Assembly: GCA_026625165.1 (NCBI GenBank)
Contig: CP112999.1
Span: forward strand, 1,426,001-1,490,000
Direction: 5' to 3'
Source of the DNA: Methanoregula sp.
GTDB taxonomy: Archaea > Halobacteriota > Methanomicrobia > Methanomicrobiales > Methanospirillaceae
Length of the DNA stretch: 64,000 nucleotides
Positions 3-25,472 of this stretch are shown in pieces; the first letter of the stretch is position 1; the number at the start of each line of letters is the position of its first letter. Position numbers and translations under genes: made by a program. Under the pieces are notes generated by a model. It saw nothing but the letters and a program-made list of their open reading frames with translations. It was not told the DNA's origin and did no database searches.

Positions 3-3000
3 GTTATAACGGTTAAAGATTATTTTGAACGCTATAATGATGAAAAATTCAAGATATTTTTACAAAAAATCTTTGACGAGAAAACCATTTTATTCATAGG
101 ATATGGCCTGAATGAATTTGAAGTATTAGACTTTTTAATCACAAAATCAGGAATCCCCGTCTCGAAAGAACCCAAACATTTCATTTTACTTCCGTATTAT
201 AGAGGTGAAGATAACATTCTCGAATTCGAGGAACAATATTTTCGACAAATGGGGATTTCGGTCATACCCTACATGAAAGATGAAAAAGGATATGGCCAAT
301 TGTTTGATGTGATAAAAAAATGGAACCAGGAAATTATTCTTCAATCCAGATTTTTACACGCTACTCATGAGGAATTAAAAAATGCAGCAAATAATTACAC
401 GCCCTCAGTTGAAGGAAAAATATTTCAGTTGATAACCAATGATAAGACTCTTGAATTTGAATTTTTTAGACAACTGTCCAAGACAGAAAATCCGTTTCCT
501 TGGGTTATACCACTGAAAAATTCCGGCTATTTTAATCCCAAAAACAATCCTTCCACAACTGAAGGTTTTGGATCCTATTGGATTATTATGGCGGTTCTGG
601 AAAATGTCGCGAAATTGAATAGTGAAAAACCTTCAGAAGAAATCACTGGAGAGATCATTCAAATTATCGACTCAATAATTGAATATCGTGATGAAAACAA
701 CAATCGTATTGAAAATATATTTACAGATCGCCATGTGGTTCGAATCATTTTTTTACTTCCGTTCGATTCAATCAATGCGAATCATTTAGATTTCATAAAC
801 ACTTGCCTGCACTCATACCACGACCGGATTCTTATTGCGGGAGAAATTGGAGACACAATTATTCCCCGCCTTCTCGCACATAATAATAAAAGTCTCTTAC
901 TCAAAATTCTGGAAATTTTATTAGATTTTGAAAAGAGTAAAAAACCTACTTTCGAGAAGTATCCCTCTGTACTGGGTGAATATTACCTTCAGGTCGTGAT
1001 GGAAAAATATACTATAAAGATCCTCACGACTTGTGGGATTGAATGTATCGATGTAGCAATAAGAAAAATCGAATCCGTTGTGCGAGAAGATCCTTCGCAA
1101 TTCCATGAAGTATGGCTACCCTCAATAACCGAAAAAAGCGACGTAAAGGAACGATATGACACTCAAATAATTCATTTCATATGGATTGGTTTCAAACTTT
1201 TAGGTCCAACACAGATCAGAGACCATGTATCAGAATTATTGAAGAAAGAACACTCAATTTTCAAACGATTAGCAATTAGTGCTATCAATGAATATTACCC
1301 CGAACTCAATGATCTTTTCTGGAGTATTGAACATAACCCTCTAAATGAATTTCATGTTAAGCATGAATTGTACGAATTACTGAAACAACATTGTAACAAA
1401 TTCTCGGATCAACAAATTAAGAAAGTGATTGAGTGGATTGAAACTCAAACATATCATGAAGATAAAATATCTGATGATCCACTCGTTCAGGGAAAATATC
1501 TTGCATATCACAAAAAAGAATGGCTTTCTGCATTACTACCAAAAGGTGATCCACAGGTCGAAGATCTTTTTGCAAAATATCAATCAATCAATCCAGCGGA
1601 ACTTAAACACCCAGGACGAAGTTTTGTTATTGAACATTTTTCAGGACTTCCAAGTCCGATCCCCAAGGAAGATCTCCTCAATAAAACTAACGTAGAAATC
1701 GTTCAGTATCTCAACAATTTTCAAGGTGACGAATATGGCCCAGAAATTTCAAGGCATTCTCTTTGTGATATTTTTCGGGTATGCATCATAGAAAATCCCC
1801 AAAAATTTTTACAAGATTTAGATCCCTTCCTGAATCTCAATAGGCTGTATCAATATGAATTGCTCATTGGATTGTCAGAAGCATGGCGAAAAGAGAATAA
1901 TTTCAAATGGGCGGGAATTTTTAAATTTATTAATTCTATTCTTGAATCTGAAGAATTTTGGACGGAAGTCTACAATGAAGGTGAATCAAATTACAGAAAT
2001 TGGATAATCTCTCGCATTGCAAATTTAATAGAAGAGGGAACAGTAAAGGATTCGCATTTATTTGAATTACATCTTCTTCCCGAAGCCGAGAAAATATTAT
2101 TGTTACTCGCCCGAAGAGCTGAATCTGATCTTTTCACGGGGGGAGATCTCGTCAATTCTGTGTTAAATTCGAATAAAGGTAGTATCTATTCTGCAATTGT
2201 GAACTATTCGTTGTGTTATGGCCGTCACTATCGGAAAGACTCTGATATCCGCTGGCCCGAATCAATAAAGAAAGAGTTTGAACAGCGCCTTGATCCAAGC
2301 GTTGAGCCTTCAGTAGAATTTTCAGTAACACTAGGAAAATATTTACCGTATCTTTGTTATCTGGATAAGGAATGGGTACGGCGAAATATTAACCGGATTT
2401 TCCCTAAAGACAATGAAATTCACTGGAATGCCGCCTTTACTGCATATTTGTTCTATTCAAAAATCTTCAAAAATATTTACAGCATGCTTAAGGCAAATGG
2501 CCATTATTCGAGGGCTATTAACACGGAATTCAAAGATCCCCACATTAATGAAAATCTCGTTCGCCATATCTGTATTGTTTATATTGAGGATATTGAAAAA
2601 ACCGACGACGGGCAAAGTTTAATTTCTCAACTACTCTTTTCGTGGAATTTTACGCAAATAATAGAACTGATACACTTTTTAAAATGGTATGGACAGAAAG
2701 TGACCCCGGAAAAACGACAGATGGTTTTACCATTGTGGGAAATAATATTTTCAAAAATCGTTTCAGATGAGAAAAATCCCGATAATATACGCTTATTATC
2801 AGGATTAAACGATTGGATATGTTTAATTGATGATTTATCCGATGAGATCTGCGAACGATTGAAGGTCTCTGTCAAATATATCAGATCTCATGATTTTGGA
2901 TTTGTTGAAGAGCTGATCCGTCATTCTGATAAAAAACCAAAATGTGCCGGTGAAATTTTTCTGAATATGATTGAAGCCGGTCATTTTTTTGATTATCAAC

Positions 3001-3137
3001 AGGAACTTATCAAAAAATTTGTCACAATTCTCTATGAAAAAGGGGAAAGAAAAATTGCCGATGCGATATGTAATCAATACTTGCGTGTCGGATTTGAGTT
3101 TCTCATTCCTATCTATGAACAAAATCAAAATCCATGA
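3..3137 (+). CDS. SIR2-like domain protein, 5' end outside window (putative defence protein)
   Basis: The reading frame is open from the first bases of the window, so the start lies upstream. The visible N-terminus contains LFIGYGLNEFEVLDFL and a following PYYRGED/LEFEEQYF segment, which matches the end of SIR2-like domains of prokaryotic anti-phage proteins, where the domain acts as an NADase. The catalytic Asn/His residues would lie upstream and cannot be checked. The remaining 900 or so residues are a long alpha-helical region with no recognised catalytic motif, probably a sensor or repeat region; the last 100 residues may correspond to the SIR2-associated DUF4020 type. AT-rich codon use sets it apart from the GC-rich genes beyond 5.5 kb. 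It sits next to a restriction-modification system. The SIR2 assignment is good; the defence role is inference. Confidence 0.75.
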   Translation, partial: VITVKDYFERYNDEKFKIFLQKIFDEKTILFIGYGLNEFEVLDFLITKSGIPVSKEPKHFILLPYYRGEDNILEFEEQYFRQMGISVIPYMKDEKGYGQLFDVIKKWNQEIILQSRFLHATHEELKNAANNYTPSVEGKIFQLITNDKTLEFEFFRQLSKTENPFPWVIPLKNSGYFNPKNNPSTTEGFGSYWIIMAVLENVAKLNSEKPSEEITGEIIQIIDSIIEYRDENNNRIENIFTDRHVVRIIFLLPFDSINANHLDFINTCLHSYHDRILIAGEIGDTIIPRLLAHNNKSLLLKILEILLDFEKSKKPTFEKYPSVLGEYYLQVVMEKYTIKILTTCGIECIDVAIRKIESVVREDPSQFHEVWLPSITEKSDVKERYDTQIIHFIWIGFKLLGPTQIRDHVSELLKKEHSIFKRLAISAINEYYPELNDLFWSIEHNPLNEFHVKHELYELLKQHCNKFSDQQIKKVIEWIETQTYHEDKISDDPLVQGKYLAYHKKEWLSALLPKGDPQVEDLFAKYQSINPAELKHPGRSFVIEHFSGLPSPIPKEDLLNKTNVEIVQYLNNFQGDEYGPEISRHSLCDIFRVCIIENPQKFLQDLDPFLNLNRLYQYELLIGLSEAWRKENNFKWAGIFKFINSILESEEFWTEVYNEGESNYRNWIISRIANLIEEGTVKDSHLFELHLLPEAEKILLLLARRAESDLFTGGDLVNSVLNSNKGSIYSAIVNYSLCYGRHYRKDSDIRWPESIKKEFEQRLDPSVEPSVEFSVTLGKYLPYLCYLDKEWVRRNINRIFPKDNEIHWNAAFTAYLFYSKIFKNIYSMLKANGHYSRAINTEFKDPHINENLVRHICIVYIEDIEKTDDGQSLISQLLFSWNFTQIIELIHFLKWYGQKVTPEKRQMVLPLWEIIFSKIVSDEKNPDNIRLLSGLNDWICLIDDLSDEICERLKVSVKYIRSHDFGFVEELIRHSDKKPKCAGEIFLNMIEAGHFFDYQQELIKKFVTILYEKGERKIADAICNQYLRVGFEFLIPIYEQNQNP

Positions 3138-6866: not shown

Positions 6867-7619
6867 TCATTCGATGAGCAGGAGCAGCCTCTCAACAACA
6901 TCGCGGGCCTGCGCCGGATCCATCCGGCGGTACATTGCCACGGCATCCATATCAGGCGGGATCTCCCGCAGCGTCCCTGCAAGGAACGGGAACTCACGGA
7001 GCCGCTCACCGAAATACTGGATATCGATCTCCGTGCCACCTGCAGCCGGGTCAAGGAGTGCTAGGATATCGGCGCGGTCCTTGCGCAGCTTGCCCTGCTC
7101 CCATTCCTCATCGTATGACGTGCCACCCCGAATCCTTGCCAACCGGTCCCATGCCGCTTTCAGCTTGAAGACCAGGAGCAGCGTCCGTTCCGGCACCACA
7201 ACCGGAGAACCGGCGCGGATCTCCCGCACCTCAGTACGGCCATCGAGCAGGGAGAACGGGCACTCCTCGGCTCTCCCCTCAAACCGGCAGACATCCTCGC
7301 GGGACCCGAAATCGATCAGGATCTCGCCTTCCGGGATGTGTTTCACGACCGTATTGGGGATCATCGGGTGCCGCTTGTGGACAAAACCGCGCTCGTCCCG
7401 CAGGTACTTCATAAGGTGCTGCCGGGCCCTGCTGTTGGTGATGAGGTCGATATCCACCGATCCGTACCACGGGTTGTAGATGTATACCGCCCAGCCACCG
7501 ATGAGGACGGTGAGAGGATACCGCTCATCCTCGATACGGGCCTGCACCCACCGGAATATCTCGATCAGCTCGTCCCGCGACGCATCGATGACCGTGCGTG
7601 CCGCGTTATAATCCACCAT
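6867..7619 (-). CDS. AbiEii-like nucleotidyltransferase (putative type IV toxin)
   Basis: A 250-residue minimal nucleotidyltransferase. The signature is GGWAVYIYNP (residues 41-50) followed by SVDIDLI (54-60), i.e. GG plus the DxD metal ligands. A conserved Lys lies in FKLKAAWDR (near 152) and a KDRAD segment (near 180) resembles the AbiEii K-D-D motif. AbiEii proteins are toxins that transfer nucleotides to target RNA or protein and are neutralised by the cognate AbiEi. The start overlaps the preceding antitoxin-like gene by 14 nt, as in AbiE operons. It is shorter than many AbiEii toxins. The family call is good; toxicity is inference. Confidence 0.7.
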   Translation of the reverse strand: MVDYNAARTVIDASRDELIEIFRWVQARIEDERYPLTVLIGGWAVYIYNPWYGSVDIDLITNSRARQHLMKYLRDERGFVHKRHPMIPNTVVKHIPEGEILIDFGSREDVCRFEGRAEECPFSLLDGRTEVREIRAGSPVVVPERTLLLVFKLKAAWDRLARIRGGTSYDEEWEQGKLRKDRADILALLDPAAGGTEIDIQYFGERLREFPFLAGTLREIPPDMDAVAMYRRMDPAQARDVVERLLLLIE

Positions 7620-8625
7620 AAATCTCCACCAGTTTCTGCGTCAGGTCGCGGCCCGCGTACCCGAGGCCGGCACAGTCGAGGAGCGCCTGTGAGGGTGAGA
7701 CCAGCCAGACACCGTTTACAGAAAACGTCCTGCGATCCTTGAATACGTCACGGTCCGGTGCATAGATCCGCACCGCGATTCCCCCTTCTGTCCGCACATC
7801 GAACATTCCTGCAAGCGCTGCGATGTATTTCTTTTCCAGATACAGGTACGACGAATCGTGCCGGGCGCTGTAACCGGTGTAGATCTCGCCAGCCGTGAAA
7901 CTCGTGAACGCACACATAAGCCCCTGCTCTTCACAGACAAGGCAGATCTCCTGGGCGAGCGCAACGGGGCCGTCAGCAGCAATCCGGATCTCCTGAGCAA
8001 AGAGCCGCTCGAATGGGCGCTCCCACGCGACACCGTTGAGGAGTTTGTTGATGTCGCTGATCTTCACGTAGCCACCAGTAGTTGATACAATCCCTTTTTC
8101 CGTAAGGGCCCGGACGGTTGCATGAGCCCAGCCATACGAGACCTTGGACTCGATCGCGAGCTGCCGGATGGAGGTCTCGTTCATCTTCAGGAGATACGAG
8201 ATGACCTGCCAGGACTTGGGGGACGTGAGTTTCACCGGTACGGCCCCGGCTTTATCGTGGGCAGCCTCAGCCACGTTCACCTCAGCGGGCAACCTGATGA
8301 GCCGCATGCCGGTCTTCTCGGCGGCATCTGCGGCTTCCTTTGTGATCCGTTTTCCCACGATGACAAATTCAGTATTGCGGGTGCTCATATTGTCCGCATC
8401 CAGGAGCAGTTTCAAAAGCCCGAGCTGCGAGAGTTCGGCGAGCCGGACGACCCGCTTGAGTTCGACGATGAACGTCTTGTTGCCATCCTCGATGATCAGG
8501 TCAAACCGCATGGGGTAGTTGTCGTTGAGCGTACTCTCCTGTTTTATTATCGCGTCATCGCCAAATCCCAGCTCTGTGCGAAGCAGCGTGATCAGCTGAG
8601 GATCGTTGGGTGAGAGCATTGTCAT
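7606..8625 (-). CDS. AbiEi-like antitoxin with N-terminal PD-(D/E)XK-type domain
   Basis: Three parts are visible. Residues 1-120 look like a restriction-nuclease fold: RFDLIIEDG then FIVELKR, giving Asp42, Glu55 and Lys57, the D-x12-ExK pattern, with a later strand TEFVIVGKRIT. Residues 135-200 form a winged helix (SIRQLAIESKVSYGWAHATV). The remainder resembles the AbiEi C-terminal domain and ends SPSQALLDCAGLG. The gene overlaps the nucleotidyltransferase gene by 14 nt. A TATA box (TTTATAAA) at 8652-8659 puts transcription start near 8629, so I chose the ATG at 8625 and not 8637; the mRNA may be leaderless. Several palindromes upstream suggest autoregulation. Whether the nuclease-like domain cuts is unknown. 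Confidence 0.65.
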   Translation of the reverse strand: MTMLSPNDPQLITLLRTELGFGDDAIIKQESTLNDNYPMRFDLIIEDGNKTFIVELKRVVRLAELSQLGLLKLLLDADNMSTRNTEFVIVGKRITKEAADAAEKTGMRLIRLPAEVNVAEAAHDKAGAVPVKLTSPKSWQVISYLLKMNETSIRQLAIESKVSYGWAHATVRALTEKGIVSTTGGYVKISDINKLLNGVAWERPFERLFAQEIRIAADGPVALAQEICLVCEEQGLMCAFTSFTAGEIYTGYSARHDSSYLYLEKKYIAALAGMFDVRTEGGIAVRIYAPDRDVFKDRRTFSVNGVWLVSPSQALLDCAGLGYAGRDLTQKLVEIYGGL

Positions 8626-8641
8626 ATGCTCTATCATTATT

Positions 8642-8719
8642 TACTGATATGTTTATAAAGTTATCAGTGATATGCAGATATCAGTGGTTTGTGATAGTAT
8701 AGGGGAAGTATCAGTGATA
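8642..8719 (-). promoter_or_regulatory. Promoter and palindromic operator-like sites of the AbiE-like operon
   Basis: TTTATAAA (8652-8659) is the minus-strand TATA box. The palindrome TATCA-G-TGATA occurs perfectly at 8662-8672 and 8709-8719, with a degenerate copy TATCAGTGG at 8679-8687 and a half site CTGATA at 8644-8649. The first site abuts the TATA box upstream, where a repressor would block TBP/TFB. AbiEi antitoxins are known to repress their own operon through inverted repeats, so these are good candidate sites. Confidence 0.6.
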
Positions 8720-15451: not shown

Positions 15452-15835
15452 ATGAGACCAACAACACAAGAAGATGTGACCTTCGAGCACATAGGGGCTG
15501 CGCGCCTCTACAACGGCTCGGTCCGTATCGATGTCAAGACCATGCAGGCGGTTATCCCCGCCGGTGAGATCCGCAGGCTCGAAGAACGCTGGCCCGCGAC
15601 GGTCTACGACATCTCGGACGTAATGAAGAACGTGGACGCGGCCCCGGTCGGGAAGGCATGGATCACCCGGTCCGGCAAAGCGGTGATGATCCTCATCAAC
15701 GATGTGCAGTATGTCTCCCCGCTCGCACAGGTAAAAGGCATGCTCAAGGGGGAGCGGAAATATGCGAATGTCTCGGCCATGCGCAAGGCCCGGACTCTCA
15801 CAGCCTCACCCGGGCCGGAAGGGGTGCCCGCATGA
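15452..15835 (+). CDS. Hypothetical protein encoded before ArdC
   Basis: A 127-residue protein of unrecognised family. It has a beta-rich N-terminal half (GAARLYNGSVRIDVKTMQAVIPAGEIRRLEERW) and a second segment (GKAWITRSGKAVMILINDVQYVSPLAQVKGML) reminiscent of small beta-barrel or single-strand-binding folds, then a basic C-terminus. The start is set by GGTGA 8 nt upstream. Its stop overlaps the ArdC start by ATGA, so the two are translationally coupled, and a role with ArdC on transferred DNA is plausible. Confidence 0.65.
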   Translation: MRPTTQEDVTFEHIGAARLYNGSVRIDVKTMQAVIPAGEIRRLEERWPATVYDISDVMKNVDAAPVGKAWITRSGKAVMILINDVQYVSPLAQVKGMLKGERKYANVSAMRKARTLTASPGPEGVPA

Positions 15836-16743
15836 AGGCCGCCGATGTGAAAGCACAGATCAACGAGCGGATCATCAAGGCGCTCGCCGAAGGAAAGATC
15901 CCCTGGCTGAAACCGTGGACGGAGAACGGCCCGCGCAACCTCTTCAGCGGCAGGGCATACACCGGGCTGAACCGGTTGATCCTCGGGCTCATCCCCTATC
16001 CTCTCCCCTTTTGGGCAACCTACCGCCAGTATCTCGCCGCAGGGCTGCAGGTCCAGCGGGGAGAGCACGGATTCGGGATCATCTACGCAGGCCGGACGGT
16101 CAAGACCGAGACGGCGACCGATGAGAATGGCGAGGAGACCGAGAACAAGAAACAGATCCGGTTCCTCAAAGCCTTCGTGGTCTTCAATGTCGCCCAGACC
16201 GATTACAAGGAGAGGGGCTACAAACTCCCCGAGGTAAAGGACAAACCGCAACTCCTCGGCTGCAATGCCGTCATCCAGGGCTATACCGGCCGGGAAAAGA
16301 TCCCCGTCACCGCAGGCGACCGGGCCGCATACAGTCCGGGGACGGATGCGATCACCTGCCCGGAGATCGGCCGGTTCAGGACCTCCGAGCACTATTACGC
16401 GACGATGTTCCATGAGTGCATTCATTCGACCGGGCCCCGGCTGAACAGGTTCAGGCGCACCGATCCGGTCTGCTTCGGCTCCGACACTTACGGCCGGGAG
16501 GAACTGGTCGCCGAGATCGGGAGCGCCTACCTTGCGGCCCTCACCGGGATCGACTCCTCGGCCGTGATCCGCAATCAGGCAGCCTACCTCCAGAACTGGG
16601 CAGCCGCGATCAAGGCCGATGCCGATCTCGTGATGTATGCGGCGGGCCGGGCAGAGAAGGCAGCGGATTTCATGATCGGGGCCCCGGCCCCGGTCCCTGC
16701 CGGGGCAAGCGGGACAGATGCAGCGGGAGGGGCAACGGCATGA
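15832..16743 (+). CDS. ardC: ArdC-like antirestriction / polyvalent metalloprotein
   Basis: A 303-residue protein of normal ArdC length. The N-terminal domain (MKAADVKAQINERIIKALAEG, then PWLKPW and NLFSGRAYTGLNRLIL) is the ArdC single-strand DNA-binding domain. The C-terminal metallopeptidase-like domain has MFHECIHST with His194-Glu195-x2-His198 and a further acidic ligand in REELVAEIGSAYL (near 223-229). ArdC proteins travel on plasmids and phages and protect incoming DNA from restriction. It is coupled by ATGA overlaps to genes on both sides. Its presence marks this interval as a mobile or once-mobile element, about 11 kb from a restriction-modification system. Confidence 0.85.
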   Translation: MKAADVKAQINERIIKALAEGKIPWLKPWTENGPRNLFSGRAYTGLNRLILGLIPYPLPFWATYRQYLAAGLQVQRGEHGFGIIYAGRTVKTETATDENGEETENKKQIRFLKAFVVFNVAQTDYKERGYKLPEVKDKPQLLGCNAVIQGYTGREKIPVTAGDRAAYSPGTDAITCPEIGRFRTSEHYYATMFHECIHSTGPRLNRFRRTDPVCFGSDTYGREELVAEIGSAYLAALTGIDSSAVIRNQAAYLQNWAAAIKADADLVMYAAGRAEKAADFMIGAPAPVPAGASGTDAAGGATA

Positions 16744-24422: not shown

Positions 24423-25472
24423 TTATTCAACCAAATCCCATGACAATGGTGTGCCTCTTTTAATATCTTTTTTTGCCTTCTTTCCGATAATCTGATCCTG
24501 ATATTTTGGAGGTAATCCATGTCCTGGCCGTATCGAACGTACATTATGTTCAGAGAGAATTTCTCCTCTGGCAATATCCCGGACCACAAAAAGCGATCTT
24601 CGGTATAACCGGCTCGCTTTTTCGTGTTCAGTCACTTCATATGAGACTTTTCCAAGTGCACTTTGGGTTGTCCGCACCGCATCAACCATTGCCTTGAATT
24701 CCTGCGGTTCAAGAGAGAATGCACTATCCGGTCCCGGTGTGCTCCGGGAGAGGGTGAAATGCTTTTCGATGATGCAGGCACCAAGCGCAACTGCCGCTAA
24801 CGGAACAGCAATTCCCAGCGTGTGGTCGGACAACCCAACCGGAACATCGAAGTATTCTGCCATGTGGGGAATAGTGCGCAGGTTCATCTCTTCCGGAGAA
24901 GCAGGATATGCACTTGTGCATTTCAGGAGGGCGATTTGGTTATTCCCCGTCTCGCGGACTGCATTGACAGCGTCCTCAATTTCCAATAACGTTGCCATCC
25001 CGGTTGAAATGATGACCGGTTTACCGCAACCGGCAATTTTTTTGATTAAAGGGATATCAACAACTTCAAATGATGCAACCTTGTATGCGGGTACATCCAT
25101 TTTTTCGAGAAAATCAACAGATGTTGTATCGAACGGTGTAGAGAAGAGATCGAGCCCGATATTATTTGCGATTTTTTTCAGTTCCGGTTGCCATTCCCAT
25201 GGCGTGTAAGCTTCATTGTAAAGTTCATAGAGATTCTTACCTTTCCAGATTAAACCATCACCGATCTGAAAATAATTTTCTCTACAATCAATAGTCATCG
25301 TATCGGGAGTGTAAGTCTGAATTTTTACTGCATCAGCTCCGGCATCCTTCGCACTCCTGATCAATTTTACGGCTTGATCGAAATCCTGATTGTGGTTTGC
25401 AGATAATTCGGCGATGATATAGGTCGAAGTCCCGGGTCCAACCAATTGTTTGTTTATTTTTAATGCATTCAT
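24423..25472 (-). CDS. pseI: Pseudaminic acid synthase-type NeuB-family enzyme
   Basis: A 349-residue NeuB/SpsE-family synthase. The barrel domain starts YIIAELSANHNQDFDQAVKLI and holds AGADAVKIQTYTPDTMT, STPFD, KVASFE, ISTGMATLLEIEDAV and the metal-ligand segment IEKHFTLSR. An antifreeze-like SAF domain follows (SLFVVRDIARGEILSEHNVRSIRPGHGLPP). The ANHN and TYTPDTMTID segments are closer to PseI than to NeuB or legionaminate synthase. The enzyme condenses phosphoenolpyruvate with 6-deoxy-AltdiNAc to give pseudaminic acid. It is the last gene of a minus-strand operon starting at 32775. Confidence 0.85.
   Translation of the reverse strand: MNALKINKQLVGPGTSTYIIAELSANHNQDFDQAVKLIRSAKDAGADAVKIQTYTPDTMTIDCRENYFQIGDGLIWKGKNLYELYNEAYTPWEWQPELKKIANNIGLDLFSTPFDTTSVDFLEKMDVPAYKVASFEVVDIPLIKKIAGCGKPVIISTGMATLLEIEDAVNAVRETGNNQIALLKCTSAYPASPEEMNLRTIPHMAEYFDVPVGLSDHTLGIAVPLAAVALGACIIEKHFTLSRSTPGPDSAFSLEPQEFKAMVDAVRTTQSALGKVSYEVTEHEKASRLYRRSLFVVRDIARGEILSEHNVRSIRPGHGLPPKYQDQIIGKKAKKDIKRGTPLSWDLVE

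Follow-up and report, generated by a model that had tools for sequence, protein, structure and literature searches.

AbiE-type systems are among the commonest toxin-antitoxin and defence pairs. Two kinds are distinguished, in which COG5340 is paired with COG2253 and COG4861 with COG4849, respectively, and in the latter the antitoxin gene comes first and the toxin gene overlaps it or is adjacent (PMC3985639). COG4861 corresponds to Pfam AbiEi_2 (PMC7251935). The COG5340 type, represented by AbiE of Streptococcus agalactiae and by Rv2827c-Rv2826c, combines a winged-helix antitoxin with a DUF1814 toxin, and both AbiEi and Rv2827c act as repressors of their own operons by way of inverted repeats in the promoter (PMC3985639, PMC7319586). 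In Mycobacterium tuberculosis, Rv0837c-Rv0836c (MenAT2) is a COG4861-DUF1814 pair (PMC3968373). MenT toxins modify the acceptor ends of tRNA by nucleotide addition, and overexpression of MenT2, the toxin of this COG4861-containing pair, caused no detectable toxicity (PMC10435456). In the literature that we searched, which included few subscription journals, there is little structural or functional description of the COG4861 half, and its N-terminal domain is nowhere described as nuclease-like. Here, we analysed two overlapping genes in a stretch of 64,000 nucleotides from the genome of Methanoregula sp. (contig CP112999.1), hereafter referred to as the window. The two genes probably make up an AbiE-type toxin-antitoxin operon that belongs to the COG4861 (AbiEi_2)-COG4849 (AbiEii/DUF1814) class. 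The pair is a divergent archaeal branch of this class, and the models of Pfam, NCBIfam and PADLOC fail to detect it. The features of the locus are collected in Table 1.

Table 1 Features of the predicted toxin-antitoxin locus, in positions of the window.
Feature	Position	Strand	Basis and remarks
AbiEii/MenT-like nucleotidyltransferase, putative toxin, 250 aa	6867..7619	-	AlphaFold2, Foldseek, Pfam, hhalign
Overlap of the antitoxin gene's end with the toxin gene's start, 14 nt	7606..7619	-	Length exact in 28 of the 32 loci that were scored
Antitoxin gene, AbiEi_2/COG4861-like	7606..8625	-	ORF; start from operator position; hhalign
AbiEi_2-type C-terminal antitoxin domain	7609..8052	-	Residues 196-343 (343-aa numbering); hhalign
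Winged helix-turn-helix	8053..8223	-	Residues 139-195 (343-aa numbering, AlphaFold2); precedes the C-domain
N-terminal PD-(D/E)XK-like domain	8284..8625	-	AlphaFold2 topology; Foldseek NucS/EndoMS; Pfam NucS_C/PDDEXK_10 matches in homologues
Candidate catalytic codons	D 8500-8502, E 8461-8463, K 8455-8457	-
Operator, proximal wide palindrome TATCA-N8-TGATA	8632..8649	.	Half-sites mostly at least 95% conserved, 39 loci
Archaeal TATA box (CTTTATAAACA)	8650..8660	-	Between the proximal palindrome pair; conserved TtTAaAT
Operator, proximal narrow palindrome TATCA-N-TGATA	8662..8672	.
Operator, distal wide palindrome TATCA-N8-TGATA	8679..8696	.
Operator, distal narrow palindrome TATCA-N-TGATA	8709..8719	.

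Conservation across the archaeal phylum shows that the antitoxin gene is not a chance reading frame. The frame (7606-8637, minus strand) offers two ATG codons: the first, at 8637, gives a protein of 343 residues, and the second, at 8625, one of 339 residues. We favour the second, because the first lies inside the conserved operator palindrome 8632-8649, and because the start at 8625 places the proximal palindrome at -47, a spacing typical of the homologues, most of which have it at -44 to -51. An earlier sequence-only reading had placed the gene at 7606-8625; the frame is confirmed, and its start is the better choice. Alignments and model follow the 343-residue numbering, in which Asp42, Glu55 and Lys57 of the 339-residue form are D46, E59 and K61. 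Where the overlap with the toxin gene is not the exact 14 nucleotides, the scored loci are broken or gapped. The AlphaFold2 model of the full antitoxin, with 37 natural homologues as input, has a mean pLDDT of 87.7 and a pTM of 0.61, and the relative placement of its domains is uncertain.

The antitoxin can be described as composed of three domains. In the model, residues 1-118 run in the order helix-strand-strand-strand-helix-strand-helix-strand, which is that of PD-(D/E)XK nucleases and which contains their alpha-beta-beta-beta-alpha-beta core. Helix 13-23 is followed by strands 30-38, 41-51 and 54-64, helix 66-81, strand 89-98, helix 100-109 and strand 112-115. D46 is located on the second strand, and E59 and K61 on the third. 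The best Foldseek matches in the PDB are NucS/EndoMS (5gke and 2vld, E about 1e-4; 1.4e-4 over 118 columns). Bax1 ranks next, and the CRISPR ancillary nucleases Can2, Card1 and Cdn1 appear lower down. The window protein matches Pfam NucS_C weakly (E 0.15), while 15 of 37 homologues match this family, the best of them with 1.4e-5, and 17 match the NCBIfam NucS model. The predicted structure and these matches support a PD-(D/E)XK-like fold for the N-domain, as the sequence-only reading had proposed. The N-domain shares with NucS/EndoMS both the fold and the D...ExK motif. However, the window antitoxin has no other NucS domain, and the N-domain belongs to the antitoxin.

The N-domain precedes the winged helix, the best conserved domain of the antitoxin, in which VSY is invariant and SIRQ, W and H are nearly so. 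In single-sequence searches of Pfam, NCBIfam, PADLOC and the PDB, the window pair gave sub-threshold matches alone; neither protein scored above the curated thresholds for AbiEi or AbiEii, single archaeal sequences in general stay below the threshold of Pfam AbiEi_2, and profile searches of the PDB gave nothing useful. Profile comparison places the antitoxin clearly. Bacterial AbiEi_2 relatives were gathered from plasmids with a short archaeal AbiEi_2 antitoxin (L045) as query, which is of the same family, comes from a related genome and has no N-domain; one further relative was found with the winged helix and C-domain of the window antitoxin. Since the queries matched these two domains alone, the N-domain was not selected for, and all 14 bacterial proteins fetched have about 130 extra N-terminal residues, with the D invariant and ExK mostly present. 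The archaeal and bacterial AbiEi_2 (PF09952/COG4861) profiles are collinear over 296 columns (hhalign 99.1%, E 1.7e-18). Taken singly, N-domains align with N-domains (82%, E 1.2e-6), winged helices with winged helices (47%, E 3.1e-5) and C-domains with C-domains (97.8%, E 5.2e-12), and all cross-matches between unlike domains are about zero.

The domain order of nuclease fold, winged helix and AbiEi-like C-domain, on which AlphaFold2 and hhalign agree, is thus as the sequence-only reading gave it. That reading had also taken the protein for an unusual fusion of a nuclease and an antitoxin, and this we reject: bacterial AbiEi_2 antitoxins have the same N-domain, and because they are collinear with the archaeal protein across all three domains, the three-domain layout is ordinary for COG4861 antitoxins. 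Its premise that AbiEi antitoxins consist of a winged helix and C-domain alone is correct for the COG5340 type and wrong for AbiEi_2/COG4861. With its three domains, the window antitoxin differs from the COG5340 type, which has no N-terminal domain. Neither sequence profile searches nor the top Foldseek matches linked its C-domain to that type, and 6Y8Q and 1ZEL gave no PDB profile match and were absent from the Foldseek top 50.

The second gene encodes a nucleotidyltransferase, for which the AlphaFold2 model has a pLDDT of 91.5. Its motifs are GG (41-42), SxDxD (54-58), D103, KLKAxWDR (152-159), which is motif III, and KDxAD (180-184). The locus thus has the arrangement that defines the class, in which an adjacent downstream DUF1814 nucleotidyltransferase carries motifs I-II (hG[G/S]...DhD) and III/IV. 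Foldseek places the model closest to MenT1 and MenT3, tRNA nucleotidyltransferase toxins of M. tuberculosis, at a sequence identity of 11-18%; the likeness is one of fold and motifs. Pfam AbiEii is matched by 11 of 27 homologues. The archaeal toxin profile matches a profile of 12 bacterial COG4849-type toxins (hhalign 92%, E 6e-7), although no match was obtained against one bacterial toxin alone (0.4%). The coupling to an AbiEii-like nucleotidyltransferase, also proposed earlier, is thus borne out by the overlap, the fold and the family matches of the homologues. When compared with the toxins of COG4861-COG4849 pairs, the window toxin is shorter (250 versus about 265-300 residues) and carries an inserted segment between motif III and the KD motif.

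The pattern of gene decay fits a second gene that is a toxin. We compared 37 loci in which the antitoxin is intact and the downstream sequence long enough. In 12 of them, the second gene is affected by a deletion, a frameshift or a stop, and six of these cases are clear internal deletions or absences. A broken antitoxin beside an intact toxin was not seen in the surveyed loci, one assembly gap apart; because the loci were gathered through their similarity to the antitoxin, the sampling is biased towards copies in which it is intact. Loci that keep the repressor without an intact second gene could also be read as a repressor that controls a housekeeping nucleotidyltransferase, with no toxin-antitoxin pair at all. 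We consider this very unlikely, as the decay is asymmetric, the fold of the second gene product matches toxins, and the distribution is patchy (28 of the 232 class genomes and 35 of the 393 phylum genomes have a relative). The closest relative of the window antitoxin is another Methanoregula copy (84%), but most copies from its own family are more distant from it than those from Methanothrix and other Methanosarcinales (65-71%), and this placement in the antitoxin tree suggests horizontal transfer, which also argues against a housekeeping role. A link to mobile elements was not found: we searched viral contigs, which held no relative, and plasmids, which gave one weak match alone.

Upstream of the antitoxin gene, wide and narrow palindromes alternate around the TATA box. 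This operator, the main surprise at the locus, lies outside the account of the sequence-only reading. At least one exact narrow palindrome is present upstream in each of 40 usable homologous loci from many genera, and 32 of the 40 have at least two, usually 43 bp apart. Exact narrow palindromes number 73 in 6.4 kb of upstream sequence and 3 in 207 kb of other sequence from the same loci. Alignment of the loci on the proximal palindrome shows that conservation extends to the wide half-sites and to the TATA box. A later phylum-wide draw found the narrow palindrome in 28 of 30 loci; its loci comprise the window itself and several that nearly duplicate earlier ones, and it partly overlaps the earlier set. 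Upstream of one antitoxin homologue (L041), the operator is expanded to tandem 43-bp repeats, at least three of them with TATCAGTGATA. As read from these alignments, the operator is almost unchanged across distantly related archaea. Its conservation implies, as the natural reading, that the antitoxin would repress its own operon, because no other domain of the antitoxin is as well conserved as the winged helix, and because self-repression through inverted repeats is known from AbiEi-type antitoxins; in this respect the window pair is predicted to resemble AbiE and Rv2827c-Rv2826c. The archaeal branch thus has a conserved operator of its own, as seen in the archaeal loci compared, and may differ in this from the COG4861-COG4849 pairs described before.

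In the 2.17-Mb genome there are only six such operator sites, two of them at this locus. The four others comprise two exact TATCACTGATA and two TATCATTGATA. One of the TATCACTGATA sites lies inside a coding frame, and the other is a single exact TATCA-N-TGATA (L062:1081-1091) about 6 bp upstream of a response-regulator gene, which may be due to chance or may be a second antitoxin target. Given what these two sites are, we do not claim a wider regulon.

The surroundings of the pair contain other genes of note. A DSR1-like protein is encoded at 249-3137 (plus strand; PADLOC Dsr1, 1015.6 bits for the part within the window); its frame begins upstream of the window, at L060:1960, and the window holds the C-terminal part. 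Segment 3194-5203 encodes an Eco29kI-type restriction endonuclease (Pfam RE_Eco29kI, E 1.2e-59) and, convergent with it, a DNA methyltransferase (N6_N4_Mtase, E 5.2e-13), which form a small defence island about 1.7 kb from the toxin gene. An ArdC-like anti-restriction protein is found at 15658-16743 (plus strand; ArdcN E 3.6e-27, zincin-like peptidase E 2.8e-27), in a GC-rich stretch at 16-18 kb (63% GC), which hints at a mobile element. It is followed by a long gene cluster (18631-58309) that resembles those for surface-sugar synthesis and has lower GC over most of its length. The cluster includes NeuB (24423-25472, E 6.5e-96) and aminotransferases and glycosyltransferases assigned by reading, and is perhaps a pathway for a sialic-acid-like sugar.

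The candidate catalytic triad is complete in the window antitoxin, and its conservation was surveyed in 52 non-redundant archaeal homologues (less than 95% identity). Of these, 51 retain D46, 46 retain E59 and 39 retain K61, and the canonical triad is present in 36 (69%). The triad changed at least 12 times on the tree of homologues, with K or E lost in many of these changes, and several loci that lost the lysine or the glutamate retain an intact toxin. In those lineages, the antitoxin can therefore function without catalysis, and the cutting site has decayed repeatedly among the relatives of the window copy, in contrast to the conservation throughout a family that is expected of an active PD-(D/E)XK nuclease and to NucS/EndoMS itself. 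The sequence-only reading had suggested that a nuclease module could give the antitoxin a defence activity of its own or a sensing role; nuclease activity of the window copy is possible, because its triad is intact, but it is not general in the family. That reading had named a lack of conservation of the catalytic residues among homologues as evidence against itself, and the survey shows this in part.

The N-domain might be an active nuclease in the window and in most members, so that the antitoxin would in addition be able to cleave DNA or RNA, such as invading DNA or the tRNA ends extended by the toxin. The triad counts, the retention of D and ExK in most bacterial relatives and the closest fold, that of an active endonuclease, speak for this reading. 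It is nevertheless unlikely, given the repeated losses beside intact toxins, the low conservation of the N-domain (36% mean pairwise identity versus 55-59% for the other domains) and the related antitoxin that lacks it entirely. A narrower proposal, that the antitoxin is a working NucS-like nuclease where the triad is kept and neutralises partly by trimming the nucleotides added by the toxin to tRNA 3' ends, is highly improbable; if true, an eraser would oppose a writer within one operon. D46 and E59 are among the most conserved positions of the N-domain, and it is not obvious why a purely structural role should preserve D46 almost invariantly and the canonical triad in 69% of homologues. The domain could instead be a catalytically dead sensor, in which binding of foreign DNA or RNA frees the toxin. 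Its fold suits nucleic acid, D46 is retained while K decays, and the window locus lies near the DSR1-like and Eco29kI-type defence genes; we regard this as doubtful, though less so than an active nuclease.

We therefore return to the toxin-antitoxin operon as the best explanation. The 250-residue nucleotidyltransferase would be the toxin and, by analogy with MenT, would probably block translation through nucleotide addition to tRNA 3' ends. The 339-residue protein would be the antitoxin. Its winged helix is predicted to bind the TATCA/TGATA half-sites on both sides of the TATA box and over it, repressing the operon, and its C-domain to neutralise the toxin, probably with help from the N-domain. 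The latter is a PD-(D/E)XK fold that the antitoxin class as a whole has inherited, and its most likely use is in nucleic-acid binding, dimerising or toxin contact; its nuclease chemistry is dispensable and has decayed in many lineages. Current defence-finding models miss this pair. The repeated loss of the active site in the archaeal branch opens the role of the N-domain to a comparison of natural variants, and the sharply conserved operator predicts the DNA target of the antitoxin.
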